DNA from: Saccoglossus kowalevskii
Lineage: Eukaryota; Hemichordata; Enteropneusta; Harrimaniidae
NCBI RefSeq assembly: GCF_000003605.2
Contig: NW_003154743.1
Span: 107,756-148,400, forward strand
DNA: 40,645 nucleotides
Direction of reading: 5' to 3'
A program made the translations under genes and the position numbers. The notes beneath the pieces are model-generated. The model was not told the origin of the DNA. It saw only the letters and a program-made list of their open reading frames with translations, and made no database searches. This document shows positions 3,763 to 39,957 of this stretch, piece by piece (position 1 is the first letter of the stretch; every line of letters starts with the position of its first letter).

Positions 3763-4090
3763 ATGGCGAGACGTCAACAACGCTTACAGTTAACACTAAT
3801 TGTATTAAGTACAATGTGCTTCGCATGGGGGCAAAGCAGTGTATGTTCGATCTCAAGCAATCTTGTGGTGGACGTAGGAGATACCTGTACCATACAAGCC
3901 GGGACGCATACAGGTCAACTAGATTCAGTCCACATAGCTGGTACAGTTATTATTGAATCTACAAGTAACGCGTATGTCACAATCACTGCGAGCAGTGTAG
4001 AGATAACGGATACGGGACACATCTCTGCTGACAGGCAAGGGTATGCTGCCAGGCAGGGAACAGGTGCTGGGAACACAGCTGGGTCTGGAG
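3763..4090 (+). CDS. Exon 1: signal peptide and N-terminal beta-rich segment
   Basis: The start is the ATG at 3763, which has A at -3 and G at +4, a good animal initiation context. Residues 1-24 form a classic signal peptide: basic MARRQQR, hydrophobic core LQLTLIVLSTMCFA, and likely cleavage near AWG-QS. Then comes a short beta-strand-rich stretch ending in ISADRQGYAARQGTGAG, the usual lead-in to a Gly segment. The exon ends at a GTAGGT donor in phase 1 and joins exon 2 to give GSGASYGGRGG, the same wording as exon 10. The open frame stops only about 10 bases beyond the donor. Confidence 0.88.
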
Positions 4091-6200
4091 GTAGGTTCTA
4101 ATACGTAATGTCAATGGTGGTTCTTAACCTTTCTATGTTTACATCATATCAACGTGCAATTATTTGTCGTAACATAATGGAGCTTGGTAGTACTCCAGAG
4201 CATTCTCTCTTCTTTGCAAAGCTGAGTTATTACCGGGACTAGACTCGCTCGATGGTGTCAGATTCCATGTAGACTCGCTCTCGTAAATCACAAGGTAGCA
4301 ATTAACAAACTAAAAAGTTCGGCGATAGTGTAGAACTTTCAAAAGTGGCGTGACTAATAATTATTGGTAGACAAACATCTCATCGTGTTTCTGATTGTTT
4401 TCAACTCATTAAAATCAATGCAAGATGCTTAGGTCTGGGAGGCGGGGTGTCACAGTGAGAGAACTCAAGCACGCAAAAACAATCATCAAGCAAAATGAAC
4501 AGAACGTGGAGTACAAGAAAAGGGGGGTCCTTTCAAAACCTCGATACTTTCTACGCACTTAAGATGCAAATTTGCCAGTTTCACAATTGTTAGAATTTTC
4601 GAAAATGTTCCTGTGTTGCTCACGTATTCAGTCAAAACTATCTCTGTCTCACACAGGGAATAGCGTCCATGATAAACTTAGGTTGTGCCATACACAGTCC
4701 CTCTATCGACTGTGTGCCATGTTAGTACTTTTTCTGACTTCTATGTCCATTGTGATATAAATAAGTGACGTTTGACATGTTTACTGAGACCCAGTTCCGT
4801 ATGTTGTAGCTTTACTGATGCCATTAAAAGAAAACACATTCTTCGGAGTTGCGTAATTGATCATAATAACATTGTAGGTTTCCGAGAAATGTGAGAATGG
4901 TTTAATTATGTTTGCTTCATGCTCTACGTGATGACTAAAGGTAGAAAAGTCAGATTTCACCAAAAGAAAAAGTAACTTATACAATCGAGTCCCAAACAAG
5001 CTTCTGGAGGTCGTGAAGGTATAAGTTGAATTCAAAATGTCAATTTTCTGTGTCGCATAATTAATATATTAGAGTTATCCGATGTTTCCACATCCGCTAC
5101 TTGCCACACCCAATGTGTGCGCGATGTGACGTTTGAAAACGCGATAACGATAAAAACGACATAACAATAGATCTTTGTTTGCCCCGAAGCCATGTAGCAT
5201 CACACACATGTGTTCACAAGTATTTGAGTGATTTCCAACTGTAGAAATCGTGTCTGCATACGTTGGAGCAGTTGTGTGACCTTACGTTGACTGTCCGGCG
5301 CTGATGTGACTTAGCCGGTTTGTGCGTGACTGCAGGCACGAGATCCTCGCAATGACACGGTCTCACACCTACCACATGTCACGTTATGTCAGATGTTATT
5401 TGTTGTATTACTGATCCAGAAACGCGTTCTACAAAATAAATAAGAGTATTGGAATTGCAAGGTGCAAGCAGCGAGGTCGCTGACCAACGCCAATGAAATC
5501 ATAAACGCAATAAAGAGACGCCTGCTGTTTGTAGAACGTTGGCCGAGTTTAAAGGCAGTCGTCGTGCCGCGCCCTGTTCGATATAGGACTCATAGCGGCA
5601 TATATAACGTGTGTAACCACGACCACCGCACTTTAATAGGCGGTACGTACCGAATGTATTCTGCTATTTTTCGAAGCCATCAGATGCATCTAACAAACTG
5701 GCTTTAACAAGTTGGTTTGAACAAAACAATGTAAGTCATTGTAAATCAATGAAAATATGTTCTCCCATTGTGAAAGCGGTGTGGCAGTGTGAGACTGACT
5801 GATATGGCGGCGATAACGTTGTCTGCGTGCGGATTAAAAATAAATTATTGGCCAATTGTAGAACTAACGCACTTTGTTGCTATGCTGCTTTTGTTGTAGC
5901 AACACAACATGTTAATTTCCGAGCTGCCGCATACCTCGCTAAGAACCCGATGACCCAGATCTTTAGGTTGCGCCTGACGTACCGTGCTCATGGCACAGTC
6001 TACCGTCTTTGGTTAAAAACTGCTGCCTTAAGCAACATTTTATGAACCGTGACATAATTGAGTTCATTTTGAAAGCGAACATTTTACTTGTGTGGGACTT
6101 TGGGACAATATCATGAAAAACAAAAGTGTTTGTTACATGATGCAGAATTCAAGTTGTTACAAACGGTACATCCACGGTATTTGTATTTGTACACCCTATT

Positions 6201-7614
6201 CAGTGGCGGCGGCACGGGGGGGGGCGCCGCCTCTACAAAATCAAGCTGAAACCCTTTGTGCAAAATGTGCCCCTCAAAATGCAGGAAATAGCGTTTCAGA
6301 TGGTCTAGATTTCAACATTTTTAAGGGACAGCATGCCCCGGGCCCCCTAGTAAGGTCGCGGCTTCGGCGCAAAGTTGGTGAGCAGATCTCGTCCCCATGC
6401 ACAATGTTGTGCCTCCGCCTCCGCTATTTAAACAACATTCATAAATTCCAATGGCAGTTGAATCAAGACTATTGCTTGTCTGAGATCCAGTCAACCGACC
6501 AACGAGAGTAAAACAGGAGAATGGGGCTGTGGTCGAGAAAGTAATAGTAATTATCGGAATTTATAAATCAGGTTTAAAATCAAAATGTACATTATCGTAA
6601 ATATTAGTTGTAAATATAAAAACTACATTAGATACAAACAAATCTGTGTAGACCTGATATACAAGATTTGAAACATTTAAAGATTAACAAGTTTGTGGTT
6701 TTGTTATTTGAGATTGAGAAAATATAATTTTGCGAATATATTAAATATTTGAACTTACCGACGTGATGTGTTCAGAACTATGGACAGTACAAGTCATTGC
6801 ACAACCTGTGAATATTTGAACTTAACGTGTGTCTGGCCAATTAATAACGTAGTTTTCTCTCGGCCATTGCCCGCTAGAACGGTTTTGTATTCGTTCATCC
6901 TTCTCTCTTGGAGGCAGTAAGTAGAAACTTTATACCTTATAATTAAAGACGACATTCGACATAATTGCGCGATTTTTCTTTTAAGACTACGTTCATATGA
7001 GTTGCACTAGACTCGCACGAGTCATGGGGTGTCTAACGTGACACCTGAGATCATGGGTATCATTACCAGAAGGGGCGTGTGATTGTGTTTGTGTGTATGT
7101 TTGGAGTGGGAGCTCGTCGGGACCGTACACATGTTTGGAGTGGGAGCTCGTCGGGACCGTACACATGTTTGGAGTGGGAGCTCGTCGGGACCGTACACAT
7201 GTTTGGAGTGGGAGCTCGTCGGGACCGTACACATGTTTGGAGTGGGAGCTCGTCGGGACCGTACACATGTTTGATATTGTCGCTAACAGCCTTCTTTGGA
7301 TCGGCAGCACAAACTCTGATTGTTTCATTACACCCTTTTGATAATAATAACAATCACTGATAGTGATAACTGCTTCATATTTTTATATTACGTCATGACG
7401 AATGCAGAGGCCGCGGCACGAAATTCTGAATGGGGGCGAGATCTGCTCAGCATCCCTTGCGCCGAAGGCGAGGCCCGACCTCACTAGTGGATCCGGGGCA
7501 AGCTCCCCCTTTTTAATATCTAGACCCTCTGACACGCTATTTCCTGCATTTTGAGGGGCAAATTTTGCACAAAGGGTTTCAGCTTGATTTTTCCACCCGG
7601 TATCGCCGCCACTG
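6201..7614. mobile_element. Foldback transposon-like element with ~210-bp terminal inverted repeats
   Basis: The sequence from 6201 to about 6424 recurs as its reverse complement from about 7404 to 7614. It starts CAGTGGCGGCG and ends CGCCGCCACTG. Shared internal words include AATCAAGCTGAAACCCTTTG, CCCCTCAAAATGCAGGAAAT and GAGCAGATCTCG. Similarity is high with scattered substitutions and small indels. The interior of about 980 bases holds no transposase frame that I can recognise, so the element is non-autonomous. No clear target-site duplication was found at the outer ends. The same CAGTGGCGG terminus occurs in the smaller element at 14418-14550. Confidence 0.75.
7099..7268. repeat. 34-bp minisatellite, five copies
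   Basis: Five virtually identical 34-base units start at 7099, 7133, 7167, 7201 and 7235. Each unit contains GTTTGGAGTGGGAGCTCGTC followed by GGGACCGTACACAT. Because 34 is not a multiple of three, the array stays open in several frames and yields artefactual Gly/Ser/Arg-rich open frames on both strands. It lies inside the foldback element. Confidence 0.95.
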
Positions 7615-8457
7615 TTCTGGTATATGAGTACAAGAAATGTCAGTGCGACGTCACACGCCTATTTAAAACAACACTGAAAATACTGATCTAGTTTAATTTC
7701 GCACTTTGCTTGTGTACATTTTCGTTCGTGTAAACTACTGAGTTTTCCCAAGTTTGTTCATTTCGTTATAAATAAATGGGATAGTAGTTTAAATTTGTCA
7801 CGCGAAAAAAAAGAACCGTAAACAAAGTTTCAGATTTATATTTGTAAAAAAACACATATAAGTTAGAAACTTATAAATGTTACGAACTATAAGAAAATTC
7901 GGATAAATAATATTCATTTTTTAAGAGACAGTGCTTTAATACGAGTTCATATCAAAAATGTTTTTTTGTGTGTGTGTACACTTTCAGACAGTGTTTTTCC
8001 AAAACATAATGTGTTATGTAGGAATAGAAGCTGTAAAATCAATTAGTACTATAAAATTATTTAACATTTAGGAATCCTAATTACGTTTACACCCCTGTTT
8101 ATTAGTCCCGGGATCTAATATGTTTATTTATTACGCAAAAAATATTGTAAATAGGAAAAATAAAGCTGTATATTTTTTGTCATTTTTTCTCTGTCCAAGT
8201 ATATAAGAAATAAATATCGTTTCATTACGCTTCGTCACTCTATCCACGCAGCCAGACAATTCTATTCAGTATAAATTGTTCATTCAACCACGGTGCCCTA
8301 ATGACACGAATCGCAAAATGAATAGTTTCGATCTATCAACATACCAGTATATACAACCACAGTCAGAGAATCGGGGGGGGGGGCATATTCAGTGACATAT
8401 AGACTATATACGTTATAATTATTGATAACTGTAAATGCATCAATTTTCACCTGTATT

Positions 8458-8586
8458 CAATTTAATTTAATTTAATTCACACGTTGGTATGGAAACAATT
8501 ATACATGTTCACGTCATATTGATTTACAATGTAGTTGATTTCACTTATATCCGCGAAAAATAATTAATGATTAATTAATTAATTCG
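8458..8586. repeat. AT-rich short tandem repeats
   Basis: A (TTTAA)n run lies near 8459-8477 and a TTAA/AATT-rich run near 8563-8586. These are simple repeats in intron 1. Confidence 0.6.
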
Positions 8587-11010
8587 GTTATAGTACGGGC
8601 TTGATATAACTACTGTACTATAGAATATAAATATACACATCACTATATATCACGGTAAATCATTCAAAGATTGCTGTGTGATGATTCATATACATACCCC
8701 TCATTCATATTTAACGTTTTTACGGAGAAAGAAGGATGTGTTTCCAAGAAAATATATGCAAAATAATCTAAAAAGCGGCCATTTTGGAACAGTTGAATTT
8801 TCGAGGTCGTTTTGTGGAAAACTTTAATTAGTAGTTTGTTGATCATATATATTTTTCAGAATTTTGAACATTACAGAAACCCAACCCCTCTTGTTAGATT
8901 TCAAGCAAAAAGTCTACTCATAATTGTTGAGAAAGTTGGTCATAAATCGCATGACAATGTTTATTGGTTTAATATTTAACATTATGAAGCTACAGTTCTA
9001 TGGCACAATAGAATAACATGTAACACAATGTTAACAAAATTGCATTGTCCACCTTTTAAACCCCAGATTTTAAAAATAATTCAGGACAACAAAAATACCA
9101 TATAACAACATATTTCACCAGCAATCAATTTGAAATATGGCATAATATCTCTGCCATGGGAACCTATGCTAAAACATTTTAATAGTGCCAAAATGGCAAC
9201 TATCCACCAAAATACAACAATCATTTATTTTCAAAAATAAGGCTGATGACCCCAACTTGTTCTTATATTGCCTTCGTCTAAGTGTACAAATATTGAAAAC
9301 ATTGAATAAATTCTGGTTATTTATGCATAGGCTTCAACCTTAACTAAGTTTTAAGTTTATGGAATAAACAGTACTTGTCAAATTTGAAGACTCGTTTGAA
9401 TTTAATATAATCCAGTCAGTGTCTGTAATAAGCCATACAGAGTGGTCCGACTCAAAGCTACTGGAGATCACATGGCAATCGCAATGCCATAATGTTATAT
9501 ACATAAGCAAAGGCTTTGACAGGATAAGCTTTGTCATGTTATTTTACGCCATGTTACGACTTTATGTCATTCACCAGGATAATTTCAGCATTGCGGGCGA
9601 TCAACTTATCTGGCCGGGAACAGTGTGTTCTATGATGCGTCATTTTTACGGCTTATTACCCCGGGAACAGTTCAATCTGCAAACAGGGTTACTTCGAAGA
9701 TAAATCACAAACGTTCATTAATTTTATTATTTATACATTATATTGGTGATATACCACTAAACGTTATGGTAATTCTTTTATCTTTCGCGACAATTACTAA
9801 GATTTGGCTTTCTGATTATGAGAATAACAATTGCTACAAACTACAAGTTGTTCTTGATATGCCGCCCAATGACAAACGTCACACGAATCTGGGACTTGTC
9901 AGTACATGATTACATGTACAATTTGTCAACTCCGGGGTAGTGCTACTGTGAACAAAATTTTGCATTATCGACTTTCGCACAGTATAGTGTCAAACTATGT
10001 CTGCTGTGAGTCATGACTTGACACTGTCTTTTAAGTCGCTGTTTTTTTGTATCAAACGATGGAAACTTTAGTGTTTACACAAGAAAGTCAAAGTATACGA
10101 CATTATTGGGAATAATTTTATTCATTAAAGCTAAGTGCTTAAATCGTTTACATATCAAACGAAATTGATTTGACATTTAACATGTGTTAGATATGAAACG
10201 CAAAGACTTGTATACAAACCGACGTAGGCGTCTTATCCAATCAACTACATGTACGTCACACATGTCCACGTGATATGTTTCAATATACACCTTGTCAATA
10301 AACGAAAGCCAGGTACCACGTATTTCGACAGAATTGTTATTTAATTAATTACGTCGTTTATCATTTACTCGCTAAACCACTTTTTAATTATTCATAAAAT
10401 TGTTGTTACTATAGACTTATTGTGTGTGTGTGTGAAAAAGGGTCGGTCAGTTGATTAGTGCTCCCGCAATGTCGGGAGGAGGAAGGAGTCGCTCGCCACC
10501 ATTGTTGATTTGGGGGACAGCTAGTATTTACACTAGTATTTAGTATTTATTAATTTTTGAGCTACACTGATTTGAGGTCAGAACAGTTGTTTATGGCAGA
10601 TTCCCAGTACTCCGGTGTTGATCGATGTGTATGTTTGGTAATAAACACGAAGCGACGTGATTAGTGGGTGTTTGGACGTCTTGGATGCCTCCGGACAAAC
10701 CCGTTAGAGCATATAACTCTTTTTCGTTCTTCGGTACTCCTCTGATGCCGGTCAAATCCAGATCTGACTTGTTCAAAAATGCAGTTTAGATCAGACTGTC
10801 ATTTGATCGAGGCTCCTAGCACCAATAACGTGTATATACTTTGTTTTAAACAGACTTGTATCTCGGCTTGCACGGCGTTACATCCGGGGGGAGATACATA
10901 GAACTTGCCTAATGGGGACGTGCCCCTGAAATGGGTCTCGTTTTTTGGATTTTAGGTATAACTATCGGTCTTATTTCTGGTCAAGATAGGTATAGAAATG
11001 GTACTTTGGT

Positions 11011-11040
11011 ATAAATATATATATATATATAAATATATAG
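11011..11040. repeat. AT dinucleotide repeat
   Basis: An interrupted (AT)n run lies within intron 1. Confidence 0.8.
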
Positions 11041-12281: not shown

Positions 12282-12680
12282 CTAGTTATGGTGGCCGTGG
12301 AGGGCGCCCTGCATCTGGATTTTTGTCCGGAGGCAGTGGCTATGGGAACTTCATCCGTCCCCTTGCATCAGGGAGTGGAGGAGGGGGCTCAAACGGTGGC
12401 CCAGGTGGCGGCGTCATCTATATCATCGGAAACAATACTGTCAAAATTGATGGTGTATTATCAGCGAACGGTGGTGATGCGTCTGGTTCGTCGAGTGGTG
12501 GCGGCAGCGGCGGGAGTGTGTTTGTTTGGACAGCTGATCTCAGTGGTAATGGCGGTCTCATTTCAGCCGTTGGTGGACGAGGGGGTACAAATGGAGGCGG
12601 AGGATCGGGGGGAAGGATCTCGCTACATTATAACGATTATGATTTTACTGGTAGAATGTTTGCACATGGCGGACGCCCAG
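12282..12680 (+). CDS. Exon 2: first glycine-rich segment
   Basis: The acceptor is TTTACTTGCAG. The exon is 133 codons long, phase 1 in and phase 1 out. Joined to exon 1 it reads GASYGGRGGRPASGF, then NTVKIDGVLSANGGD, GGGSGGSVFVW, GGGGSGGRISLHYN and AHGGRP. This is the same order seen in every later module: IDG-SANG, GGGSGGS, GGGG-GGRI, GG-P. The donor at 12681 is GTATGG. The frame stays open only four codons past the donor. Confidence 0.93.
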
Positions 12681-13197: not shown

Positions 13198-13490
13198 ATG
13201 GAGATGTTGACGAATATCAAACAGCGTCATCAATGTATGCATCGTCGGTTAAACCAGGATATGATGCCGATAAAGGCAGATTAGAGAATGGCAACACAGT
13301 CTGGCGACCACTGACTTCTCAAACTGGAAGCTTTATAAGAATCACTTTTGAGATTCCTCTGTATATAACATCAGTTTCCACGAGGGGATGCAAAGGAAAT
13401 AAATGTTACCAAGGCGACGAGAACACACAAGAATGGGTCAAGAAATACTATGTAAAAATTGACGATGGCAGTGGATTTGTTGAATATAAG
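13198..13490 (+). CDS. Exon 3: discoidin (F5/8 type C) domain, N-terminal part
   Basis: Entered in phase 1 after TTTTTTTAG and left in phase 0 at GTAGTT. The translation carries the landmarks of an F5/8 type C fold in order: TASSMYASS, NTVWRPLTSQ (the usual W-P position), FIRITFEIPLYITSVSTRG (strand following the hydrophobic core), and EWVKKYYVKIDDGSGFVEY (usual W-V-Y-V-DDG-W-Y region). An unusual Cys pair lies in RGCKGNKCYQGD. Such domains bind lipids, glycans or collagen in other proteins, but the ligand here is unknown. The frame stays open to 13862 past the donor. That extension is intronic, because the domain continues in exon 4. Confidence 0.9.
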
Positions 13491-13529
13491 GTAGTTAAAA
13501 TTACTGTTTATTTCAATCTACCTAAATTT

Positions 13530-13605
13530 ATTTGCATCACCACATATACCTGGAATTATTTGCATAAACCTGAAATTATTTGCATAAACCTTCAGTCATT
13601 TGCAT
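13530..13605. promoter_or_regulatory. Four POU-type octamers (ATTTGCAT) in intron 3
   Basis: ATTTGCAT, the reverse of ATGCAAAT, occurs perfectly at 13530, 13558, 13578 and 13598. The last three are spaced exactly 20 bases apart within a degenerate 20-bp tandem repeat that lies 40 bases after the exon 3 donor. It may be a POU-factor enhancer or simply a small tandem duplication. Confidence 0.35.
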
Positions 13606-14617: not shown

Positions 14618-14780
14618 CCATTTGGGAATACACGTACGATATTTGATGGTAATGTGGATGGTACTAATGAGAAGAGAAATGACTTTGATTTTCCTGTATT
14701 GGCCAAGTCAATCCAGGTGCACCCAACTGAATGGCAAGGGCAAATCTCATTGGCTGTTGGTTTCTATGGTTATACAAATG
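14618..14780 (+). CDS. Exon 4: discoidin domain, C-terminal part
   Basis: Phase 0 in (acceptor TATTACAG), phase 1 out (donor GTATAT). It reads PFGNTRTIFDGNVDGTN, then DFPVLAKSIQVHPTEWQG and ISLAVGFYGYTN. This matches the C-terminal half of F5/8 type C domains: F-GN-D, P-A+-I-+-P-W and L-E-G. The terminal Cys usual for the family (LGC) is replaced by FYG, so the canonical disulfide that clamps the domain is probably absent. The frame runs on into the intron to 14968. The exon 5 join restores a sensible linker (GYTNDDVGNT). Confidence 0.85.
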
Positions 14781-15179: not shown

Positions 15180-15224
15180 ATGATGTTGGAAACACACCAG
15201 ATACTGATTGTAATGTTGTCAATG
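15180..15224 (+). CDS. Exon 5: 45-nt linker microexon
   Basis: Acceptor TTCTCACAG, donor GTTAGT, phase 1 on both sides, 15 codons. The peptide DDVGNTPDTDCNVVN is acidic with one Cys. It links the discoidin domain to a GPGT motif. Being symmetric, it can be skipped without a frameshift, so alternative splicing is possible. Confidence 0.72.
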
Positions 15225-16344: not shown

Positions 16345-17391
16345 GTGCTGTTGCCTGGATACCAGCTGATGAGGTGGATGAGTATACGTTGCACGAATTG
16401 ACCTTGGAGAACGGGGGTCAAGTTGTTTTCAACCACAACGCAATTGTATCAAACATTAATGGAGATGAAACATCCATTGTACACATCGCTGAAGGAATTC
16501 AGTTCCACCTTGAAGAAAGCAGTGTCACCACATCGGCACTGTATTTATATGACGATGCTGCTCTGGAGTTGGTTGGTAACATATGCCATATTAAGCGATC
16601 ACTTGTAGCCTGGGGAGAGATTATAACTGACCATTCAGACTGGTTGACGTTTGGTGGATTTCTCCAAAGTAAAATGATACTTTACCCGAAACTATACAAC
16701 AATGAACTGCATCTCAATGCCTTTACGATTAAAGAAGACGCAGAGGTAATTTTAGTAGAATCTGATGAGCCTGATATCTGCGGGTATAGTCTACATATCG
16801 ATGGAGGATTTGCTGAGTTACAAATTGAGGAACGAGGGAAAATTAAAGTCTCCTGTCCATCTACATTTGTTGGTGGTAACTTTCAGATGGGATTGAATTC
16901 TGAAGCTGTGATAAGGGTAGACAGCATGCTAAGATTTGATGAAATTAACATAGCTGGTTCTCTGAGCATCACCAACAAAGCCATCTTTAGTGGCAAACTG
17001 GAATATTCAAAAATGCTGCAGTTTAACATCTTAGAAGGCGGAGCCATATATTTAGATACTAATAACCAGCCTCTTGTTGTCAATGGCACTGAGAATGCTG
17101 ATATTACATGGTCTTCTCTTTACGCGGGAGATGTTGTAATTGCTGGTATTTTTCATCCAAAATTGCTCAAAAACAACGATGGAGACTTGTCTGGGTGGGA
17201 GATCCTAATTGTCAATGCCAGTGGTGTCTTCAATTTCACAACTGCAGGCAAGTTTCAAGTGGATGACATTGATGTTGCTGGAAAGATTATCGTTCAAAAC
17301 CCGATATGGATGGAGTCAAGAGCAGACAATGTGAAGCGTGTTAACTCAATTACAATAGAGGAAACTGGTGAAATCCGATTAGATGAAACAG
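16345..17391 (+). CDS. Exon 8: AWIP segment and first beta-helix-like repeats
   Basis: Phase 1 in and out, 349 codons. The start is set by the acceptor TTTAATAAAG, which joins exon 7 to give AESGAVAWIPADEVDEYTL. This matches the AWILP-S-YTFEELQI signature of later modules. The rest consists of alternating short strands and Gly/Asp turns (for example FDEINIAGSLSITNKAIF and VDDIDVAGKIIVQNPIWM), suggesting stacked beta-helix coils. About two repeat units of about 100 residues are present. Single NxS/T sequons such as NGT and NAS occur. The exon ends exactly at a repeat boundary (RLDETG). Confidence 0.93.
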
Positions 17392-18536: not shown

Positions 18537-19907
18537 GGAGAATCACTGGTGCATGGTCATATGAGTCAACTTTACTGGTAAAGCAACTAGTCAATAAGGG
18601 TCACATGTTTGGTGGTTTGATATCTGTTAACTCCACTGATGTGCATGGTTGGGACTATTTGGTGGTGGATGGAGCGGCAGCAGTGTTAGAATTTGATGTT
18701 GAGGGTGCATTTCGATGTAATGATATCAACATCATGGCAGGGACAATGCAAGTACTTAATCCAGTAGTTATCCAGGGGAAAGATAACGTGCTGTGTGATA
18801 GTTTTGTGGTCGGTGCATCAGGAATTGTACTTTTAGACATGAACGGTGGATCAAGTCAGGATTGGCGACAAGATGCGTCAATCTTGTATATAGAGGAATT
18901 TGAAGTAAATGGTACATTTCATGGTGGTGCGTTGACATCTGGATCAGGTTGGCATGCATTCAGTATTGGCCCCAATGGTGTGGTAACATTTCAGAGTTTT
19001 ACTTCTAAAATACTGATAGATACAGTTTGGATCGCTGGCACCCTGGATGTGCTCAACCCAGTCATTATCAAAGGTCGACAGAGGTCACACAGCATATCAT
19101 TTACAGAGACACCAGAGGGCGACATCACACTTGACAGTGGCCATTATGAAGGATCTGATTTAACCAATCTGACATATTCAGGTCTGTGGGCTGATGTTAT
19201 TATCCTTGATGGACAGTTCACCTCACACAATTTGTCAATAAGTACCACTGCATTTACAGTAGGGGGCACTGTAACATTTGAACCAGGCATGGTAGAGCAA
19301 ATTGACATTTTAACTGTCAGTTCAGGCGGACGACTAGAAGTTATTCGACCAGTCACTTTCCGTGGATATGCCAGTGCAGATGGCAAAACAGAATCGATAA
19401 CTGTGGATGGTTTTATGAAACTAGACATGTTTGGTAACCATGACGATAAGCTATGGTCGTCAGATATCCCATCAGAGTTTCATCTCCATGATCTGACTGT
19501 AAATGGTGAGTTGCATGCTGGGTATCTTTCTGATGGCAATGGCTGGGACTCCCTAACTGTAGGAGAAGGTGGTATTATGAACTTTGACCCCAACGGCACC
19601 TGGTACATCATGGAATCTATAATAGCAGGAAGTGTTACATCATTCCGTCCATTTTTGCAAGGTGATCCCCTGACAGGTTCCAGACTGGTAATCAACACTA
19701 CTGGTACATTGGATTTAGTGTTCAAAGGAGAACCTTTAGATACTGGTTCTGGTGCACCATATTCATACCTTGTTTTTGACATTGAGATTATTGTGAATGG
19801 TGACTTTAAAGCTGGTTCCCTCAACATCACAACACTTGAACTTACTATTGGTAGTACAGGAACAATGAATGTAGATGGTGGTGGTTTTCTCAGTGATCAA
19901 GGCATTG
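18537..19907 (+). CDS. Exon 9: tandem ~100-residue beta-helix-like repeats
   Basis: The acceptor is TTTTCATATTCCATAG, the donor GTATGT, phase 1 on both sides, 457 codons. It holds about four and a half repeats. The recurring order is VNGTFHGGALTSGSGWHAFS, then IGPNGVVTF, DTVWIAGTLDVLNPVIIKG and GDITLDSG. Counterparts are seen in LDGQF, VNGELHAGYLSDGNGWDSLT and VNGDFKAGSL. The regular hydrophobic strand and Gly/Asn turn pattern suggests a parallel beta-helix or a related solenoid. It ends MNVDGGGFLSDQGIG, leading into the next Gly segment. No enzymatic residues typical of pectin lyases were identified. Confidence 0.95.
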
Positions 19908-20589: not shown

Positions 20590-20852
20590 GTGCTGGACAG
20601 AGTTCTTCAACAAATGGAGGATCTGGTGCTAGCTATGGTGGACGAGGTGGCCAAGGCTGTAGAAGTGCAGTTTATTGTACACCATCAACTATGCCATATG
20701 GAAACATATTTAAAGACACTGATATTGACTGGGGCAGTGGTGGGGGTTCTGGTAGTGGATTAGGTGGACGCGGAGGAGGCAGAATATATCTTAGGTTACG
20801 CGATTCCTTTACGATGAATGGACACATCTCTCTTAATGCTGAGCATGCACCG
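20590..20852 (+). CDS. Exon 10: second Gly segment, cysteine-bearing variant
   Basis: Phase 1 in (ATCCCAAG), phase 0 out (GTAGGT). It reads GAGQSSSTNGGSGASYGGRG, then CRSAVYCTPS, MPYGNIF, GSGGGSGSGLGGRGGGRIYL and MNGHISLNAEHAP. The YG-I-GSGGG and GGGRI-L motifs match exons 17, 24 and 28. The C-x5-C pair is shared in spirit with the C-x4-C of exon 29 and is absent from the exon 28 copies. Confidence 0.92.
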
Positions 20853-21450: not shown

Positions 21451-21637
21451 AGTTACAGTCGTGGTGGTGGTGGGAGTGGAGGAGGATTATGGGTAGAAGT
21501 TAAACAGTTCCAAGGTAGAGGTACTATTAGCTGTAATGGTGGTGATGGTGATTATTATGGAGGAGGTGGAGCTGGGGGAAGGATTAATATCTACTATGTA
21601 ACTGGAGATTACCACAGTGGTCAAATTACATCTAAAG
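21451..21637 (+). CDS. Exon 11: glycine-rich GGGSGGG / GGGGAGGRI segment
   Basis: Acceptor CATATTGCAG in phase 0, donor GTAACA in phase 1. It reads SYSRGGGGSGGGLWVEVKQF, then GTISCNGGDG, YYGGGGAGGRINIYYVTGDY and GQITSKG. This is the direct counterpart of GGGSGGSIW-L-G-G-NGGDG-GGGGAGGRI in other modules. Confidence 0.93.
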
Positions 21638-22264: not shown

Positions 22265-22380
22265 GTGGAATTGGTGGTAGGACATATTCAGAACCTGGTG
22301 GCCCTGGAATCACTTATTTGAGTGGTACACAACCATTTCACAGAAATCTGAGAATTGACAACAAATGCCAGAATGCACAT
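22265..22380 (+). CDS. Exon 12: GGPGIT linker
   Basis: Phase 1 in (GTTATATTTAG), phase 0 out (GTAGGT). It reads GGIGGRTYSEPGGPGITYLS, then GTQPFHRNLRIDNKCQNAH. The GGPG-x-x-Y and RNLRIDN pattern equals the GGPGTV-Y-HRTLLLENN step of later modules. The donor is immediately followed by an eight-copy 79-bp minisatellite. Confidence 0.92.
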
Positions 22381-22383
22381 GTA

Positions 22384-23014
22384 GGTATTTTCATTTGAAC
22401 TTGTCTAGCACCTCCTAGTGGCAGTCTGTGGAGAGTCTCCAGTAATGTCAATATAGTGCATAGGTATTTTCATTTGAACTTGTCTAGCACCTCCTAGTGG
22501 CAGTCTGTGGAGAGTCTCCAGTAATGTCAATATAGTGCATAGGTATTTTTATTTGAACTTGTCTAGCACCTCCTAGTGGCAGTCTGTGGAGAGTCTCCAG
22601 TAATGTCAATATAGTGCATAGGTATTTTTATTTGAACTTGTCTAGCACCTCCTAGTGGCAGTGTGTGGAAAGTCTCCAGTAATGTCAATGTAATGCATAG
22701 GTATTTTTATTTGAACTTGTCTAGCACCTCCTAGTGGCAGTGTGTGGAAAGTCTCCAGTAATGTCAATATAGTGCATAGGTATTTTTATTTGAACTTGTC
22801 TAGCACCTCCTAGTGGCAGTCTGTGGAGAGTCTCCAGTAATGTCAATATAGTGTATAGGTATTTTTATTTGAACTTGTCTAGCACCTCCTAGTGGCAGTC
22901 TGTGGAGAGTCTCCAGTAATGTCAATATAGTGCATAGGTATTTTTATTTGAACTTGTCTAGCACCTCCTAGTGGCAGTGTGTGGAAAGTCTCCAGTAATG
23001 TCAATATAGCGCAT
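22384..23014. repeat. 79-bp minisatellite, eight copies, abutting a 5' splice site
   Basis: Units start at 22384, 22463, 22542, 22621, 22700, 22779, 22858 and 22937. Each contains GGTATTTT(C/T)ATTTGAACT, CTAGCACCTCCTAGTGGCAG, and GTCTCCAGTAATGTCAATAT. A few alternating variants (CTGTGGAGAG or GTGTGGAAAG) suggest higher-order amplification. The first unit starts 3 bases into the intron, so the real donor and the array share sequence. Confidence 0.95.
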
Positions 23015-24228: not shown

Positions 24229-24413
24229 GGGCCATTGCTATTTTACTACCATTGGTAGAAGACTATACATATGAGTTTACTGATATTGAGATCTATGGGG
24301 GAGCTGAACTGGCATTTTCAGCTAACACTACAATGGTGAAGACACAGTATATCTATGGGGATGATACAGGATATGTACACGTTGCACCATACCAGACACT
24401 GGAAGTCAATGCT
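24229..24413 (+). CDS. Exon 14: YEFTDIEIYG / GDDTGYVHV segment
   Basis: Phase 1 in (ACTTCTCCAG), phase 0 out (GTAAGT). It reads GAIAILLPLVEDYTYEFTDI, then EIYGGAELAF and IYGDDTGYVHVAPYQTLEV. It aligns with LPQSG-DYTFEELQIYG-AHLAVL and MIGDRSGTVHIG-NQTMDL of the other modules. Confidence 0.93.
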
Positions 24414-26845: not shown

Positions 26846-26926
26846 ATATAACAGTTGGTGTTGAGTATGGTTCCATTACCGAACCAACAGACTTTGGTAG
26901 CGGTGGTGGATCTCAGGGAGGAATTG
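26846..26926 (+). CDS. Exon 17: YG-EP-FGSGGG segment
   Basis: Acceptor TGTTTTGTAG, donor GTAAGC, phase 1 on both sides, 27 codons. It reads ITVGVEYGSITEPTDFGSGG, then GSQGGIG. It matches TGQPYGDIYEPEQFGSAGG of exon 28. Its 5' boundary coincides with that of exon 28, so the preceding GAGHGGRGG part should be on a separate upstream exon. Confidence 0.9.
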
Positions 26927-27753: not shown

Positions 27754-27908
27754 GTGGTGGTATTCTTCGGCTGATAGTGCATACTTCCCTCACCATAGAG
27801 GGCAGTATAACAGCTAATGGTGATACTGGTGACACTTACACAGGAGGAGGGTCAGGTGGATCTATATGGATATCTACATTTGAACTTGAAGGATTTGGTG
27901 TTATACAG
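27754..27908 (+). CDS. Exon 18: GGGSGGSIWI segment
   Basis: Phase 1 in (TTCTTTTGTAG), phase 0 out (GTGAGT). It reads GGGILRLIVHTSLTIEGSIT, then ANGDTGDTYTGGGSGGSIWI and STFELEGFGVIQ. It closely matches exons 2, 24 and 28. Confidence 0.94.
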
Positions 27909-28528: not shown

Positions 28529-28684
28529 GCAAATGGTGGCAGTGGCGGACTTGGTGGTGGTGGAGGAAGCGGTGGACGAATCGCTATTTATTGGGATTCC
28601 CAGAAGTACTGGTATGGACATCTTGAAAGTTATGGTGGGTATGGCAGCTATGCTATCGGAGGGGCAGGCACAGTGTATATGGAG
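28529..28684 (+). CDS. Exon 19: GGGGSGGRIAIYW segment
   Basis: Phase 0 in (TATCTCAATAG), phase 0 out (GTGAGC), 52 codons. It reads ANGGSGGLGGGGGSGGRIAI, then YWDSQKYWYGHLESYGGYGS and GGAGTVYME, the standard continuation of exon 18. The Trp and Tyr content is high around the strand after GGRIAI. Confidence 0.94.
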
Positions 28685-29122: not shown

Positions 29123-29325
29123 AACATAGAAGAACACGTCAAAAATCGATCACTAATTATCAATAATAATAATCAATCACCTGTCACCCCTTACGTTGAT
29201 GACTTTGATAACTATAGTAGCGATTCCAGTCGAACCTGGTTACCAACAAGTCAACAAAATTATTATTTTGAGGAAATACAGATTTTCAAAGAAGGACATT
29301 TAGTATTGCATCCTGATATATTACG
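29123..29325 (+). CDS. Exon 20: RSLIINNN / WLPTS / YFEEIQIF segment
   Basis: Phase 0 in (TTTTATTAACAG), phase 2 out (GTATGT). It reads NIEEHVKNRSLIINNNNQSP, then DDFDNYSSDSSRTWLPTSQQ and YYFEEIQIFKEGHLVLHP. It matches HRTLLLENN-NYSDL-AWILPQS-YHFEELQIY-AHLAIL in one piece. Modules two and four split this region differently. Confidence 0.93.
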
Positions 29326-29654: not shown

Positions 29655-29843
29655 GCTAAATGGACTACATGTTTTTACTTTTATTGGTGATGGAACTGGA
29701 TGGCTACATATTGGACCTGACCAGTATGTTGTCGTTGGCAACAGTCGCGATGACGATTTTGAAGTAAATGTTCATATCCATGAAGAAGGAGAGTTAGTAT
29801 TGCCGCCTACATTCACATGTCGTCAAATTACCATCATTGTTGA
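29655..29843 (+). CDS. Exon 21: IGDGTGWLHIG segment
   Basis: Acceptor TTTTATTTTCAG, donor GTAAGT, phase 2 on both sides. It reads LNGLHVFTFIGDGTGWLHIG, then PDQYVVV, DFEVNVHIHEEGELVLPPTF and CRQITIIVE. It is equivalent to HMIGDRSGTVHIGPNQ-MDL and FNVRVY-GGYLGLAP-TFVH-V. Confidence 0.94.
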
Positions 29844-30224: not shown

Positions 30225-30432
30225 AGGTATACTGAGTGTGCATGATTTAACAGTCGGTGATGGATGTAGATTACTTCTTAGTCCAACTGGTCGGTCCCAT
30301 CTAATCTCAGATGATGCATATACGGAGATTACATCTGGTGAATACAGAATGGATTCCCTGATTGTCAAAAACAATGGTGAGATTGCACCAGTGGACTGGT
30401 TAGATGCAGGTGATAGAAAGATAGTCCTAACA
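30225..30432 (+). CDS. Exon 22: GILSVHDLTVGDGCRL segment
   Basis: Phase 2 in (TTGTAATAG), phase 0 out (GTAAGT). It reads GILSVHDLTVGDGCRLLLSP, then TGRSHLISDD, EYRMDSLIVKNNGEIAP and GDRKIVLT. It corresponds to GTLAHVDHITLHHDGLLAL-YGGQT-FHFDRILIQDTASI of exon 28. Confidence 0.92.
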
Positions 30433-31121: not shown

Positions 31122-31302
31122 GTTGAGAATTTTCATATAGAAGGTGGAGGTCATGTTCATGCTGTTGATCTTGGTATTAATGTTGTCACCATGGTAATAG
31201 ATGATCTTGGTCGACTGGTGGCTGATTATCATGACATTCCGTGTAATGTGTCTGATGGAAGCGGTAAAAAACCAACTAATGACAACCTATCTGGTAGTTC
31301 AG
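31122..31302 (+). CDS. Exon 23: IEGGG / IDDLGRLVAD segment
   Basis: Phase 0 in (TTTATTTGCAG), phase 1 out (GTAAAT). It reads VENFHIEGGGHVHAVDLGIN, then VVTMVIDDLGRLVADYHDIP and SGSSG. It is the counterpart of VIIEGGG-FHVTRMMI-ENITIDDGGTLNADGTGY. An exon of this type is what is missing after exon 16. Confidence 0.93.
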
Positions 31303-32277: not shown

Positions 32278-32540
32278 GTGCTGGACATGGGGGTCGTGGT
32301 GGAAGAGGATCCAACCAAAGACTGACTGGTGCACCATATGGTCATCTGTATGAACCGGATCATCTTGGCTGTAATGGAGGTGGAACATTTGGAGGACGTG
32401 GGGGAGGGAAAATGATGATTACTGTGTCCGAGAGTCTAAAGATAGATGGTGAAATCAGTGCTAATGGTGAAGATGGCCAGGACAGTGGTTCTGGTGGTGG
32501 AAGTGCTGGCTCTATACGAATCAACACAACACACCTACAA
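32278..32540 (+). CDS. Exon 24: GAGHGGRGG to GGGSAGSIRI Gly segment
   Basis: Phase 1 in (TTTTAATTAG), phase 0 out (GTAAGC). It reads GAGHGGRGGRGSNQRLTGAP, then YGHLYEPDHLGCNGGGTFGG, GGGKMMITVSESLKIDGEIS and DSGSGGGSAGSIRINTTHLQ. This single exon holds what exons 17 and 18 split in the previous module. Confidence 0.95.
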
Positions 32541-33283: not shown

Positions 33284-33485
33284 GGATATGGTAAAGTCCA
33301 AGTAAATGGTGGAAATGGTCACAATGGTGTGAGTGTTCAGGGGGGAGGTGGATCGGCAGGCAGAATAGCTGTTTATTTCTCATTAAATAGAACATATTCT
33401 GGATCATTTGAAGCATATGGTGGTATCCCAGGTGGTAGTGGTGCTGGAGTTGGTGCACCTGGTACTATGTTCTTTTACCATACTG
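33284..33485 (+). CDS. Exon 25: GGGGSAGRIAVYF segment
   Basis: Phase 0 in (TGACTTTGCAG), phase 1 out (GTATGT). It reads GYGKVQVNGGNGHNGVSVQG, then GGGSAGRIAVYFSLNRTYSG and AYGGIPGGSG, GAPGTMFFYHT. It equals the middle part of each exon 28 module. Confidence 0.95.
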
Positions 33486-33705: not shown

Positions 33706-33849
33706 AATATGATCACCTTTCTTTGATTGTTGATAACCATGGTAATGGACCTCGAGAAGATGAGAATGCAATTGAAAGTTATCATGATTTGTCAGAGGAT
33801 GAAAGTCGGGCTTGGATTTTACCTTCTTCTGCGGATCATATGTTCTCTG
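33706..33849 (+). CDS. Exon 26: LIVDN / AWILPSS segment
   Basis: Acceptor ATCATTTCAG, donor GTAAAA, phase 1 on both sides. It reads EYDHLSLIVDNHGNGPREDE, then YHDLSEDESRAWILPSSADH and MFSG. It matches HRTLLLENN-YSDIS-D-AWILPQSKVHVFASG. Confidence 0.94.
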
Positions 33850-34101: not shown

Positions 34102-34806
34102 GTGACCATAACTACCATTTTGACGAACTACAGATTTATGGCCATGCTCACCTCGCTATTCTGACCGATCCAGTTGATAGGGAAGCATCATTTCATTTTC
34201 GCCACATGATTGGTGACAGGTCAGGAACTATACACATCGGTAATCACCAAACCATGAACCTTATTAGAGATAACATTGATCTTCCGTTTAATGTACGAGT
34301 ATACAAAGGAGGATTCTTGGGACTTGCACCTGATACCTATGTACATGGCGTCACTATATACTTGAGTGGTGTATTGGCTCATGTCCGAAATTTGACGCTC
34401 CATCATGGAGGTAGGTTCTCGTTAATGAAGGAAGGACACACAAATGACACCACATCAAGTAATTATAACTTTGATGTAGTACATGTACAAGATCAAGGAT
34501 ACATTCATATGATCGCAGACCCGGTCGTTGATCCTGGAATATCATTCACCACAAGACTTTTCTGGATTGATGGTGGCGGTTTAGTTGAAGGAACCCATCT
34601 CTACATTAGATCTGAAAATATAACAATTGATGCTGGTGGTGTGCTCAGTGCTAATGGACATGGATACTCAATTAATCATGGCCCAGCAGTGTTTTCAAAT
34701 GGAACTCAAAATATCGGATTACATGGAGTGATCAACATAGGTCTTGGATACACATCTAGTGATGGCTCTGGTGCTGGACATGGTGGAAGTGGTGGACATG
34801 GCAAAG
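34102..34806 (+). CDS. Exon 27: intron-free signature segment of module four
   Basis: Phase 1 in (TGTTTTTTCAG) and out (GTGAGA), 235 codons. It reads DHNYHFDELQIYGHAHLAIL, then HMIGDRSGTIHIG, IDLPFNVRVYKGGFLGLAPD, VLAHVRNLTLHHGG, VQDQGYIHMI, IDGGGLVEG and LSANGHGY. It ends GAGHGGSGGHGKG. In module three the same region is spread over exons 20-23. The frame continues past the donor for 16 codons and then stops. Joining exon 28 gives GHGK-VVSMTGQPYGD, as in the continuous wording at about 37940 in exon 28. Confidence 0.95.
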
Positions 34807-35200: not shown

Positions 35201-35369
35201 ATTAAAAACTAGATCTTTAGTCATTGCTCAACGAATAATGGTAATCGTTTTTATATGATACAGTGTGGATATCGATAGCTGTGAATATACCGGTAGTATG
35301 ATAATGGAAATAGACATGTTTCATAGTATAGTTATAGAGTAATTAAGAATTTATTTTGATTTTTCACAG

Positions 35370-38300
35370 TTGTTAGTATGACTGGGCAACCCTATGGTGA
35401 TATCTATGAACCAGAGCAGTTTGGTAGCGCTGGTGGTGGAACAGCAGGCGGCAGTGGTGGAGGGCGTATTTGGTTTAATGTCTCCAACACCTTACAGATT
35501 GATGGTGTTGTATCTGTCAATGGTATAAGCGGGGAGACTAACTCCGGAGGTGGCAGTGGTGGTAGTATCTGGATGCATGTATATCACTTGACTGGATATG
35601 GTCTGATATCTGCCAATGGCGGTGATGGAATTGGAGATGGTGGTGGAGGGGCTGGTGGTAGAGTTGCGCTATACTTCTCGGATAACTCCACATTTGAGGA
35701 ATTCTCTTATGAAGCACATGGTGGTGCACCAGGTGACTTAGCGTGTAATGAATGTGAGGGCGGGGGACCAGGAACCGTATTTATGTATCACTTAGTTGAG
35801 GATCATAGGACTTTACTTCTGGAGAACAACGGTTGGCAACCTAGACGTAAATCTATTGATTGGGACAACCTTCTTGAGGATGGCTGCAGAGGATGGATAC
35901 TCACAAACTCTGGAAGTCACCGTTTTGCCAATGAGAATCATGAATATCATTTCGAAGAATTACAAATTTATCAGAGTGCTCATTTGGCCATTCTCAATCC
36001 CAATGACACAACCCTTTACCACAGTGCACAGAATTCTGATATATTCCTGCCACGTTTACCAAATCTTGTCACCCTGTTTTTCCGCTATATGATTGGTGAT
36101 CGCACCGGTGCGGTTCATGTCCATAACAGACAAGAATTAGATCTAGAAAGAGAAGAGATAGATCTTCCATTCAGCGTGCATGTGTATTTTGATGGACATC
36201 TTGGTCTGGCACCCACCACGTTTGTACACGGTGTTGAAATACACATGGCCGGTATGTTGTCATATATAAGAAATCTAACCCTACATCACGGTGGGTTTTT
36301 ATGGCTACAGCATGGAGGACGAACTACTGGTGAACCATTCAGCACATATCAATTTGATTATGTACGTCTTCAAGATGAAGGTTTCATTAGTGCTGAAACA
36401 GATCCAATTTTAGACCCTGGGATAACCTTCATCACAAATGGATTTATCATTGAAGGTGGTGGAATTATGCATGGTACAAAGATGACTATACTGTCAGAGA
36501 ACGTCACCATAGATGGAGGTGGTAGATTAGCAGCCGATGGTCTAGGATATCAACCTCACCATAATAACGCAACACATGGTGGAGACTCATTGCATGGTGA
36601 TGTCAATATCGGACAACCCAACAGTGATTTGGGCGTAGGATGCGGAGCTGGTCACGGTGGAAGCGGTGGACGTGGCTCTCATTCTAATGGAGTGGGTGGT
36701 GGCTTTGCTTATGGTGACCTTTACGAACCATATGTATTTGGAAGTGCTGGTGGGTTCAGCCATGATGGAGAGCAGGGTGGCACAGGAGGTGGAATTATCT
36801 GGTTAAATGTCACAGGTGTTATTGATATTGATGGTGAAGTTACAGCTAATGGTGGCCATGCAGATGCAGAAGGAGGAGGTGGTGGTAGTGGTGGAAGTAT
36901 TTTGATGTATGCAAGTGTAATCAAAGGTTATGGTAGAATTGCTGTGGATGGCGGAGATGGCTCAAATAATACAGACGATCCAGGTGGTGGAGGAGGCGGA
37001 GGAAGACTTGCCATATATTTTGTCACGAATGAAACATCTACTGGTTTCAACTATCACTCTAGAGGTGGTCATTCCGGAAATAATAAGGAAGCTGAGAATG
37101 GTGGTGGTGGTACTGCCTTCATTTACCATATGGTATATACGCACCGTACACTGATAATTGGCAATGGCCATCTTGAACCAAGAAATCAGCACCATATCAT
37201 TGAAAACTACAATGATTTGACATCTGATGGCTGCCGGACATGGATACTACCACAGTCTGGACATCATTTCCTTGCAAGTGGTACCCATGATTACACTTTT
37301 GAAGAACTACAGATCTATGGAGCAGCTCACGTGGCTGTTCTTAATCCCACCCACTCAAAGGCTTCTCTGTTTTTCTTGCACATGATTGGAGATCGTTCAG
37401 GCACTTTTCATATTGGAGCCAATCAAACGATGGATCTCAAAATTGAACACCGTGATGAGATAGACTTGCCATTTAATGTCCGGGTATATTCAGGTGGATA
37501 TCTTGGTTTAGCACCAGAGACATTTGTTCACAATGTCAGTATCTGGTTACACGGCACTCTGGCACATGTTGATCACATTACACTGCACCATGATGGACTG
37601 CTAGCTTTACAGTATGGTGGACAAACTGAGTTTCTTAAACCAAATCATTTCCATTTTGACCGTATTTTGATTCAAGATACTGCTAGTATTACAGGTGTTC
37701 AGTCACCGATGGAAAACCTGGAAATGACTTTAACAACAAGATCTGTTATAATTGAAGGGGGTGGTAGATTTCATGTCACTCGCATGATGATTACAACTGA
37801 AAATATCACTATTGATGATGGTGGCACTTTAAATGCGGATGGTACTGGTTACCGATCAACTGACGTGCACATTACCGAGGTCAATACTGGTAAAGGTCAT
37901 GATAGCCTACTGGGGTCATCTGGTGGAGGTCATGGAGGGACAAGCGGCCATGGTATTGGTACTGAACTGACTGGTCAGCCCTATGGGGATCTGTATGAAC
38001 CTCAATATCTTGGTAGTTCTGGAGGAGGGGATAAAGGTGGGCAGGGAGGTGGATTGGTCTGGGTGAATGTCACTAACGTAGCATGGATTGATGGTGTTAT
38101 TAGTGCAGATGGTGCCAGTGCTGGTAACATACATAGTGGTGGTGGCAGTGGTGGCAGTCTCTGGTTGTACTTCCTGTACTTTAAAGGTGATGGGAATATA
38201 ACAACTAATGGTGGTGCCCAGTACATGTCTGGTACAGGGGGTGCTGGATCTGGTGGAAGAATTGCTGTATATTTCTGGGACAATACAACCTATCACGGCA

Positions 38301-39113
38301 CCTTTCAATCGCATGGTGGATATGATGAAATTAGTGATGGTGAACCTGGTGGTCCTGGTACAGTATTTATTTATCACATGCTTCATGAACACCGGACACT
38401 GTTATTAGAGAACAATAACCTAATCAGTCATCATGTTGATCTTATTAGAAACTATTCAGACATTTCGCAAGATAGTTTCAAAGCGTGGATTCTTCCCCAG
38501 TCTAAGGTGCATGTGTTTGCCAGTGGAGCTCTTGACTACCAGTTCGAGGAGCTGCAGATTCACAGTAATGCCCACCTTGCAGTGTTAACAGAACCATATG
38601 ATGCTGGTGTTTCTATTCACTTCAAACATATGATTGGTGATCGCAGCGGTTATGTACACGTGGGTCCTAACCAAATCATGGACCTAAAAAGGGATTACAT
38701 TGACACACCTTTCAATTCTTATGTTTATCATAGAGGTTATCTAGGACTCGCCCACAATACAGAAATCAGCAGCGTCTTTGTACACATGGAAGGAACTCTT
38801 GATCATGTGCATGACATGGAGCTTCTTAATGGCGGTGAACTCAGACTTTTCCTGACTGGTTCCACTAACAAAATGCAATGGCTGAATTATCGATTTAATG
38901 GCACAGTGATAGTTAAAGCCCAGAGTCTAATAAACGCATCAAGTCCATTTGCGCATCCTGAACAGTACCACTTACAAACTGGTAAACTTATTGTAGAAGG
39001 TGGTGGCAAAGTGTATGGTAAGAACCTGAGGATTGACTCTTTGTTTATGACTGTTGATGATGGTGGACATGTAAGTGCTGATGATGGTGGTTACCTTGCT
39101 GGTGATGGACCAG
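35370..39113 (+). CDS. Exon 28: three tandem intron-free modules, 1,248 codons
   Basis: Acceptor TTTTTCACAG, donor GTAAAT, phase 1 on both sides. Three module copies start at YGD-YEP motifs at 35393, 36710 and 37982 (spacing 439 and 424 residues). Each has, in order, GSAGGG or GSSGGG, GGGSGGSIW, GGGGAGGR-A-YF, GGPGTVF-YH or equivalent, HRTLL, a WIL(P) step, F(E)ELQI, HMIGDRSG or YMIGDRTG, PF-V-VY-G-LGLA, LHH-G, a V-I-GGG step and a final (S)AD-GG. Cys residues are few (for example LACNECEGG and DGCR). More than ten NxS/T sequons are present. Copy one carries an extra 18 residues before YMIGDRTG. The last copy ends ADDGGYLAGDGPG. Confidence 0.97.
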
Positions 39114-39178
39114 GTAAATAATTCACTGAATTGATCTTGCCTGTATTTATGATCCTTTGAATGTAAGCTTATGTTAAA

Positions 39179-39455
39179 TTTCACAAAATAGTTTTATGTA
39201 TATGTGCATATCAATTAGCTAATTTGTATATTATAGCTGTTTGAATGCCAATGTTAACTATTGTCTCCTTTCACAAAATAGATTAATTTATCATATGTGC
39301 ATATTAATTAGGTAATTTGCATATCATAACTCTTTAGATGCCAAAGTAAACTTTTATCACATTGTGTTTCATCTGTGCATATTATTCAGGTAATTTGCAT
39401 ATCACATTCACTTCAATTGCAAAGTAAACTTTTGCCACCTTTCACAAAATAAACC
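39179..39455. repeat. Diverged ~90-bp tandem repeat in intron 28
   Basis: TTTCACAAAATAG-type words recur near 39179, 39270 and 39441, interleaved with (A/T)TGTGCATAT, TTAGGTAATTTGCATATCA and TGCCAA-GT-AACTTTT. About three copies, imperfect. Two units contain ATTTGCAT octamers. Confidence 0.65.
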
Positions 39456-39786
39456 TGTTTTCATTTGGTCCAAAGTTAACAAAGAAATTAAAAAAAAAAT
39501 ATGTATAATTTTACAATGATGACATTCAAAAGGGTTTTAATTAATTCAATTCAATAAACTGAATTCAGTGTCATTTACAATTTAAAATCTTAAAAAACAA
39601 ACAAGGTGTTTCCTGATTTGCTGAGTCATACATGTAAACATGTAACTTAATGACAACTATCTTATTCAATTTTAAATGTTAAAATTAATTATTGATTTAG
39701 TGGTCAACCAGACAAGGTCAATTCTTGTGAAAGAAATGATCCTTGAAATCTGCTCAATGTCATCACATTGATTATTATTCTTACAG

Positions 39787-39957
39787 GTGCTGGTATCAAG
39801 CATAAACTTGGTAATTCAGGTGCATCACATGGTGGAATGGGAGGAAGAGGCGGATGTGGTCCAAAAACTTGTATATTAAAAAGAAATGTTCCATACTGTG
39901 GATTATTGTATCCAAACTGCTTTGGCAGTGGTGGAGCAGGATCTAAAGCTGGAATAG
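39787..39957 (+). CDS. Exon 29: start of next Gly segment, Cys-rich variant
   Basis: Acceptor TTATTCTTACAG, donor GTACCC (weaker than others), phase 1 on both sides. It reads GAGIKHKLGNSGASHGGMGG, then RGGCGPKTCILKRNVPYCGL, LYPNCFGSGGAG and SKAGIG. Four Cys lie between GGRGG and FGSGG. The gene must continue beyond the window, since GGG-I-L-IDG-ISANG is expected next. Confidence 0.9.

Follow-up and report, generated by a model that had tools for sequence, protein, structure and literature searches.

A giant repeat-built gene in Saccoglossus kowalevskii with a predicted beta-helix module related to tandem repeats of Patescibacteria

In the present study, we analyzed a window of 40,645 nucleotides from the hemichordate Saccoglossus kowalevskii (contig NW_003154743.1, hereafter C4411, positions 107756-148400) and found that a spliced coding gene built of repeats spans it on the + strand from 3763 to 39957 (positions are those of the window unless a contig is named). 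The gene is conserved, multiply repeated and of extracellular type. The repeat is a module with a glycine-rich (Gly) half followed by a second half. Probably, the window holds the 5' part of a gene for a giant, membrane-anchored beta-helix fibre of the cell surface, serving in adhesion or in the matrix, whose module family is common to this animal and Patescibacteria.

The curated window model consists of 24 exons with 10,662 coding bases and 3,554 residues, is stop-free, and has GT at all 24 donors and AG at all 23 acceptors (Table 1). An earlier interpretation of the window from its letters (the sequence-only reading) had proposed one giant spliced modular protein from 3763 to 39957, which this model and repeats far above chance confirm; its 29 exons and at least 3,780 residues are replaced by the figures given here. 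Glycine makes up 16.4% of the model. Exon 1 opens with a start that by eye resembles a signal peptide (MARRQQRLQLTLIVLSTMCFAWGQS), in agreement with the signal peptide claimed before. It joins the exon at 12282 directly in phase, across the longest intron of the model (8.2 kb, 4090 to 12282), and the join recreates GGSGASYGGRGG as found at 20590; predicted exons at 5684, 9578 and 10608 were therefore dropped as artefacts. Another predicted exon, at 16072, was discarded because its phase is incompatible with 15224, and predicted exons at 24869-25003 were excluded for want of support. The junction from 24413 to 26846 is tentative; it surrounds a run of N (26059-26556), and thus the model may lack exons at this place. 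The start of module 8 (39787-39957) is not the end of the gene, which continues past the window. No tRNA and no Rfam family was found in the window.

The three modules of exon 35370-39113 are 45-48% identical in pairs, and in a separate comparison the two outer ones are 49 and 46% identical to the middle one. A profile built from them (modules 5-7) matched pieces in many further open reading frames (ORFs) on the + strand, whereas the - strand of the same region gave no match (E <= 0.01). In the spliced models, a Gly-half profile found 20 stretches and a second-half profile 23, with none in reversed proteins (independent E-value, i-E, <= 1e-3); part of these counts arises by construction, since both profiles were built from 12 modules of those same models. 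The window contains seven Gly halves and the start of an eighth (39787), so that the earlier count of at least six modules was slightly low. Animal modules measure about 380-440 residues. Among modules 5-7 and the exon 34102-34806, the proportion of synonymous differences (pS) is 0.73-0.80, near saturation, while that of nonsynonymous differences (pN) is 0.32-0.40; thus, the repeats are ancient and subject to purifying selection. When the whole genome (572 Mb, 4,830 contigs) was searched with module 6 and all 24 candidates were scored, all 17 matches lay on the + strand of this contig, within C4411:120081-211881. This search overlooked several Gly halves of the same gene, and thus divergent copies may exist elsewhere in the genome. 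The GT-AG introns, the EGF, VWD and LamG domains described below, and a COX1 gene on another contig with 7 in-frame TGA codons (TGA encodes Trp in mitochondria) are in line with an animal origin.

An F5/8C (discoidin) domain comes after the Gly half of module 1, and next come two beta-rich exons (16366-17391 and 18537-19907), which have repeats of about 26% identity in common (BLAST E 2e-24 and 3e-10). The F5/8C domain (PF00754) scores 44 bits against a Pfam gathering score of 28.2 when exons 13198-15224 are spliced, and 17.8 bits in the unspliced frame of its first exon alone. In the scanned pieces of the window, no other domain exceeded its Pfam cut-off, as the sequence-only reading had supposed. 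The inability of that reading to match the second half to a named domain also stands: a Pfam scan of 35360-39121 gave no family even with E allowed to reach 1, Pfam, PHROGs and PDB gave no usable match by sequence for the module, and Pfam matches of window pieces to bactofilin and FlgE were under the cut-off.

When 84,980 prokaryote genomes were scanned by pattern for the Gly half, a single relative was found, in Patescibacteria bacterium BroJett019 (with an E of 4e-13, a value relative to the candidate stretches only). The ORF of BroJett019 (BOKM01000001.1, 3,989 residues) carries four complete modules in a row, then the Gly half of a fifth plus a little more, together with three LamG_3 stretches, the sole Pfam matches in it at E <= 0.01. 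A second module-bearing frame, of 1,598 residues, lies about 10 kb before this one (C1:644899-647541 of BroJett019). In a survey with the BroJett019 modules, 21 of 379 genomes of the phylum matched (E <= 1e-8). The listed match covers at least 250 of 341 positions in seven of the 21 (G001, G255, G297, G356, G230, G296 and G288); the listed matches in the remaining genomes are mostly of the Gly half, including those in the longest frames (10,041 and 6,205 residues). Three or four full modules stand in tandem in G001 (BroJett019), G255, G297 and G356. Long module-bearing frames (3,989, 3,716, 3,629, 6,205 and 10,041 residues) occur in Patescibacteria genomes of about 0.9-1.4 Mb.

For a wide comparison, 12 animal modules were aligned as a profile with 20 near-full bacterial modules from seven genomes, partial matches being left out. 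The full-module profiles matched with probability 100 (E 7.3e-48, 29% identity over 326 columns), the Gly half alone with 99.93, and the second half alone with 99.05 (98.5 and E 2.7e-15 with its Gly tail trimmed). The three half tests were each controlled with 20 column shuffles, the full-module test with none; shuffled profiles reached at most 1.97 (below 0.4 for the second half) and reversed ones at most 0.43. As judged from these profiles, the animal module is homologous to the Patescibacterial tandem repeat in both halves. In a narrower test with three against four rows, the whole module reached 99.0, the Gly half 99.3 and the second half only 21.5 (E 0.001), with reversed controls at or below 1.5. 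The N-terminal cap aligned weakly with bacterial N-termini (probability 92 with the Gly tail and 65 without; 20 tail-less shuffles <= 3.6). No relative was found by whole-module alignment against genome and viral contigs, with Gly halves against viral contigs, or with module 6 against phages. The scans covered prokaryote and viral sets, and further relatives may well be found among the proteins that are annotated automatically as uncharacterised in other animals. Of the searches suggested earlier as a check, that of Pfam yielded no family, and profile comparison yielded the Patescibacterial repeat. The claim that the protein is undescribed therefore holds for curated libraries and must be qualified by these relatives and by a contact of the Gly half with the AgmC family, far below its cut-off (see below).

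A single branch (97/95) separates the animal from the bacterial rows in a tree of the 32 modules, and thus the copies multiplied independently on each side. The tree has no root; a midpoint, used for drawing only, makes one of the animal modules fall among the bacteria (91/85). Because of the missing root and the long branches, this tree cannot tell transfer from old descent.

The structure prediction suggested as a check was run with AlphaFold2 and gave an all-beta solenoid resembling parallel beta-helices, with a predicted TM-score (pTM) of 0.82. The module is predicted to form a beta-helix rod, perhaps a right-handed parallel one. Since the solenoid runs through both the Gly half and the second half, the latter need not be a separate domain; the halves of the proposed two-part module are indeed repeated, and it is their division into two structural parts that may fall away. 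At the usual beta-helix rise of 4.8 Angstrom per coil, the rod might be of the order of 100-160 nm long. Structural matches include adhesins (EtpA, HMW1, TibA and antigen 43), polysaccharide lyases and epimerases. Three matches in BFVD at E <= 0.001 (e.g., an Ostreococcus virus protein, probability 1.00) have TM-scores of 0.15-0.24.

On the same contig and strand, the modules carry on for about 64 kb past the window, to a total of 19 Gly halves. Twelve of these were found downstream by profile; the first may be the remainder of module 8, and the total of 19 is counted in this way. One downstream exon of 4,073 bases carries three modules. After a run of N come EGF exons and then, if EGF and laminin-G motifs are used for the count, nine units of about 620 residues, with VWD in some. 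Among eight downstream pieces scanned with Pfam, VWD was above the cut-off in one (three stretches), Laminin_G_3 in three and an EGF model in five; the best pieces scored 124.7 against 22.9 (VWD, PF00094), 65.6 against 27.6 (Laminin_G_3, PF13385) and 57.6 against 24.3 (EGF_Teneurin). A single transmembrane segment stands out, with a hydropathy of 3.47 compared with at most 1.88 elsewhere across the three models, and is followed by a cytoplasmic tail. The models comprise 3,554 (window), about 4,500 (module continuation) and about 6,550 (EGF part) residues, with more hidden in gaps; the second figure is 4,678 minus the wrong-frame last exons. These last exons of the downstream module model, five in number, read the EGF region in the wrong frame and were replaced by the EGF-region model, in which two very short introns and a last exon of 21 bases are probably artefacts, since open frames run through them. 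If this is one gene, it would measure about 140 kb and encode more than 14,000 residues.

The most likely explanation of this arrangement is a protein in which a signal peptide would be followed by some 19-20 tandem modules, forming a right-handed parallel beta-helix rod interrupted by inserts such as F5/8C, and then by EGF repeats, the nine EGF/VWD-like/LamG units, one transmembrane helix and a cytoplasmic tail. Such a protein would serve as a stiff and extended fibre in adhesion or in the matrix. Its membrane end would be the anchor, the EGF/VWD/LamG part may bind or self-associate, and the rod with F5/8C may hold contacts far from the membrane. The protein, if encoded by one gene, would be membrane-anchored rather than freely secreted because of the transmembrane helix and tail; these and the same-strand EGF, VWD and LamG domains make the word "secreted" of the sequence-only reading doubtful, while the extracellular structural or adhesive role that it proposed is still the best guess. 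We infer adhesion from the company of F5/8C, EGF, VWD and LamG domains, from a fold like that of bacterial adhesins, and from the presence of the modules in giant Patescibacterial proteins.

Several observations weigh against such an anchored fibre. The structure model of exon 18537-19907 is all-beta with low confidence (predicted local distance difference test, pLDDT, 55.8), the list of structural matches is one of generic beta-helix similarity, and Foldseek found nothing in PDB at E <= 0.001. N-glycosylation sequons are enriched solely in the window part (43 versus 27.8 in shuffled sequences) and not downstream (37 versus 35.5 and 52 versus 57.6). Downstream, VWD reaches 21.2 and 15.4 bits in two other large pieces (cut-off 22.9) and LamG_3 19.7 bits in one piece (cut-off 27.6); furthermore, two inserts look like F5/8C by eye, with no match above the Pfam cut-off. 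A run of N of 11.3 kb lies between the last module exon and the first EGF exon, exactly where the kinds of domain change. Because it parts the two sets of exons, there may be two neighboring genes, one for a giant secreted beta-helix matrix protein ending in the gap and one for a separate EGF-VWD-LamG transmembrane receptor. A start or stop within the run would be invisible, and neither the Gly-half nor the second-half profile found any module in the C-terminal (EGF-VWD-LamG) model. However, both parts are on the same strand with a spacing little above the longest intron in the window (8.2 kb), the module model is stop-free up to the gap, the first exon past it resembles by eye the end of an EGF already under way, and the Patescibacterial relative combines modules and LamG_3 in one protein. 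We consider two genes rather unlikely, and the join across the gap is what we infer.

Even less likely is an ordinary secreted structural glycoprotein of cuticle, mucus, shell or tube matrix that would lack an anchor and owe its bacterial likeness to convergent Gly-rich coils. Many Gly-rich matrix proteins are known, and the glycine content, the signal-peptide-like start and the low probability of the second half in the narrow test would fit one. However, the downstream transmembrane helix, if there is one gene, argues for an anchor, and the wider profiles align the second half, which is not Gly-rich, far above its shuffles. The presence of polysaccharide lyases and epimerases among the structural matches would also suit an enzyme or lectin whose beta-helix acts on glycans as pectate lyases or epimerases do, a reading that we regard as highly improbable.

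Returning to the membrane-anchored fibre, its closest counterparts are the Patescibacterial giant proteins, which have the homologous tandem two-part module and, in BroJett019, LamG_3 in the same protein, with an N-terminal cap that may be similar. The BroJett019 protein differs in being a single uninterrupted frame with modules of about 341 residues, against about 380-440 in the animal, and by eye in a different C-terminal domain and in stretches of hydrophobic residues close to its two ends; from such hydrophobic ends, the Patescibacterial giant proteins look membrane-bound. Many Patescibacteria live attached to other cells. A kind of giant adhesin common to different domains of life, namely to the animal and Patescibacteria, is conceivable, and we propose it tentatively: the module, perhaps with the cap, would have reached this one locus by transfer from a bacterium or by ancient descent, been amplified to some 19-20 copies, split by introns, and fused to EGF, VWD, LamG and transmembrane parts to give a fibre that crosses the membrane once and exceeds 14,000 residues.

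Two-partner-secretion and autotransporter adhesins (EtpA, HMW1, TibA and antigen 43) agree with the module in predicted fold and, it may be supposed, in surface-adhesin use. They use a bacterial export route, and EtpA, HMW1 and TibA are 13-19% identical to the module in structural alignments. No Pfam match to the two-partner-secretion domain was found in the 1,253-residue exon; the resemblance to HMW1 and EtpA is of fold only. AgmC is a gliding motility protein of myxobacteria. Its N-terminal domain (NCBIfam NF047640) is most similar to the module in the Gly half (E 5.4e-07 in the animal exon and 5.8e-12 in the Patescibacterial ORF), but the scores of 28.9 and 45.3 bits, respectively, are far from the curated cut-off of 275. 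Animal giant adhesives, such as the sea star footprint protein and flatworm adhesives, carry EGF, VWD and discoidin domains; they are not known to have a beta-helix module array or a transmembrane helix. Plant Gly-rich membrane proteins (At4g32920 and two others) are possible relatives.

The giant SPEARE proteins of nanohaloarchaea are anchored in the membrane at the cell surface, where they are proposed to bind partner cells, and LamG surface proteins occur in the same genomes (PMC10266531). As described there, the SPEARE proteins differ in their immunoglobulin (Ig)-like and VirB4-like ATPase domains (PMC10266531). No VirB4/TraG-like ATPase domain was among the Pfam matches of the parts scanned here, no SPEARE protein having been compared. 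The likeness is, by analogy, a parallel of role and not of descent.

The literature searched, in which few subscription journals were covered, gave no description of the module, of the structure of AgmC or of this architecture. The fold and the accessory domains were known already; what is new relative to the libraries and papers searched is the family of modules, the fact that it occurs in Patescibacteria as well as in an animal, and a single-pass protein that bears some 19-20 modules as a rod. Few animal proteins known to us approach more than 14,000 residues, and hardly any use a beta-helix as a cell-surface rod. Very long fibres of the cell surface seem to have in this module a structural unit that has been overlooked. 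A name for it would fill a gap in the annotation of giant proteins, as it has no Pfam family and yet is matched, at least in part, by 21 of 379 Patescibacteria genomes and by an animal, and its common occurrence gives a testable idea of how long cell contacts are built in an animal and in Patescibacteria.

Table 1. Exons and domains of the curated model in the window
Feature	Position	Strand	Remark
Exon 1, signal-peptide-like start and N-terminal cap	3763..4090	+	ends ...ISADRQGY
Exon 2, module 1 Gly-rich half	12282..12680	+	profile match
F5/8C (discoidin) domain, first part	13198..13490	+	PF00754, 44 bits spliced
F5/8C domain, second part	14618..14780	+	alternative donor 14768
Exon following F5/8C domain	15180..15224	+
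Beta-rich exon without Gly runs	16366..17391	+	start weakly like second half, i-E 1.3e-6
Beta-rich exon	18537..19907	+	repeats ~26% identical internally and with exon 16366-17391
Module 2 Gly-rich half, first part	20590..20852	+
Module 2 Gly-rich half, second part	21451..21637	+
Module 2 Gly half, end	22265..22384	+
Module 2 second half, partial	24229..24413	+
Module 3 Gly half, start	26846..26926	+	upstream junction tentative
Module 3	27754..27908	+	GGGSGGS
Module 3 Gly half, end	28529..28684	+
Module 3 second half	29123..29325	+
Module 3 second half	29655..29723	+	GDGTGWLHIG
Module 3 second half	30225..30432	+
Module 3 end	31122..31302	+
Module 4 Gly half	32278..32540	+
Module 4 Gly half	33284..33485	+
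Module 4 second half	33706..33849	+	AWILPSS
Module 4 second half	34102..34806	+	GDRSGT, LGLAP and LHHGG
Giant exon, modules 5-7	35370..39113	+	module 5 (35381-36691), 6 (36692-37969), 7 (37970-39113)
Module 8 start	39787..39957	+

Three tandem arrays lie in or beside the introns of the window model. A 79-bp unit repeated eight times (22382-23014, 97% match) starts at the splice donor of exon 22265-22384 and overlaps the last bases of this exon. The first intron contains a 34-bp unit in 5.2 copies (7097-7273, 100% match), probably a recent array, and the intron at the end of the window contains a minisatellite of 48-bp units in 11.5 copies (40095-40644, 95% match). An open frame that by eye resembles a C2H2 zinc-finger protein was observed on the same strand, some 5 kb past the giant gene (C4411:257030-257719).

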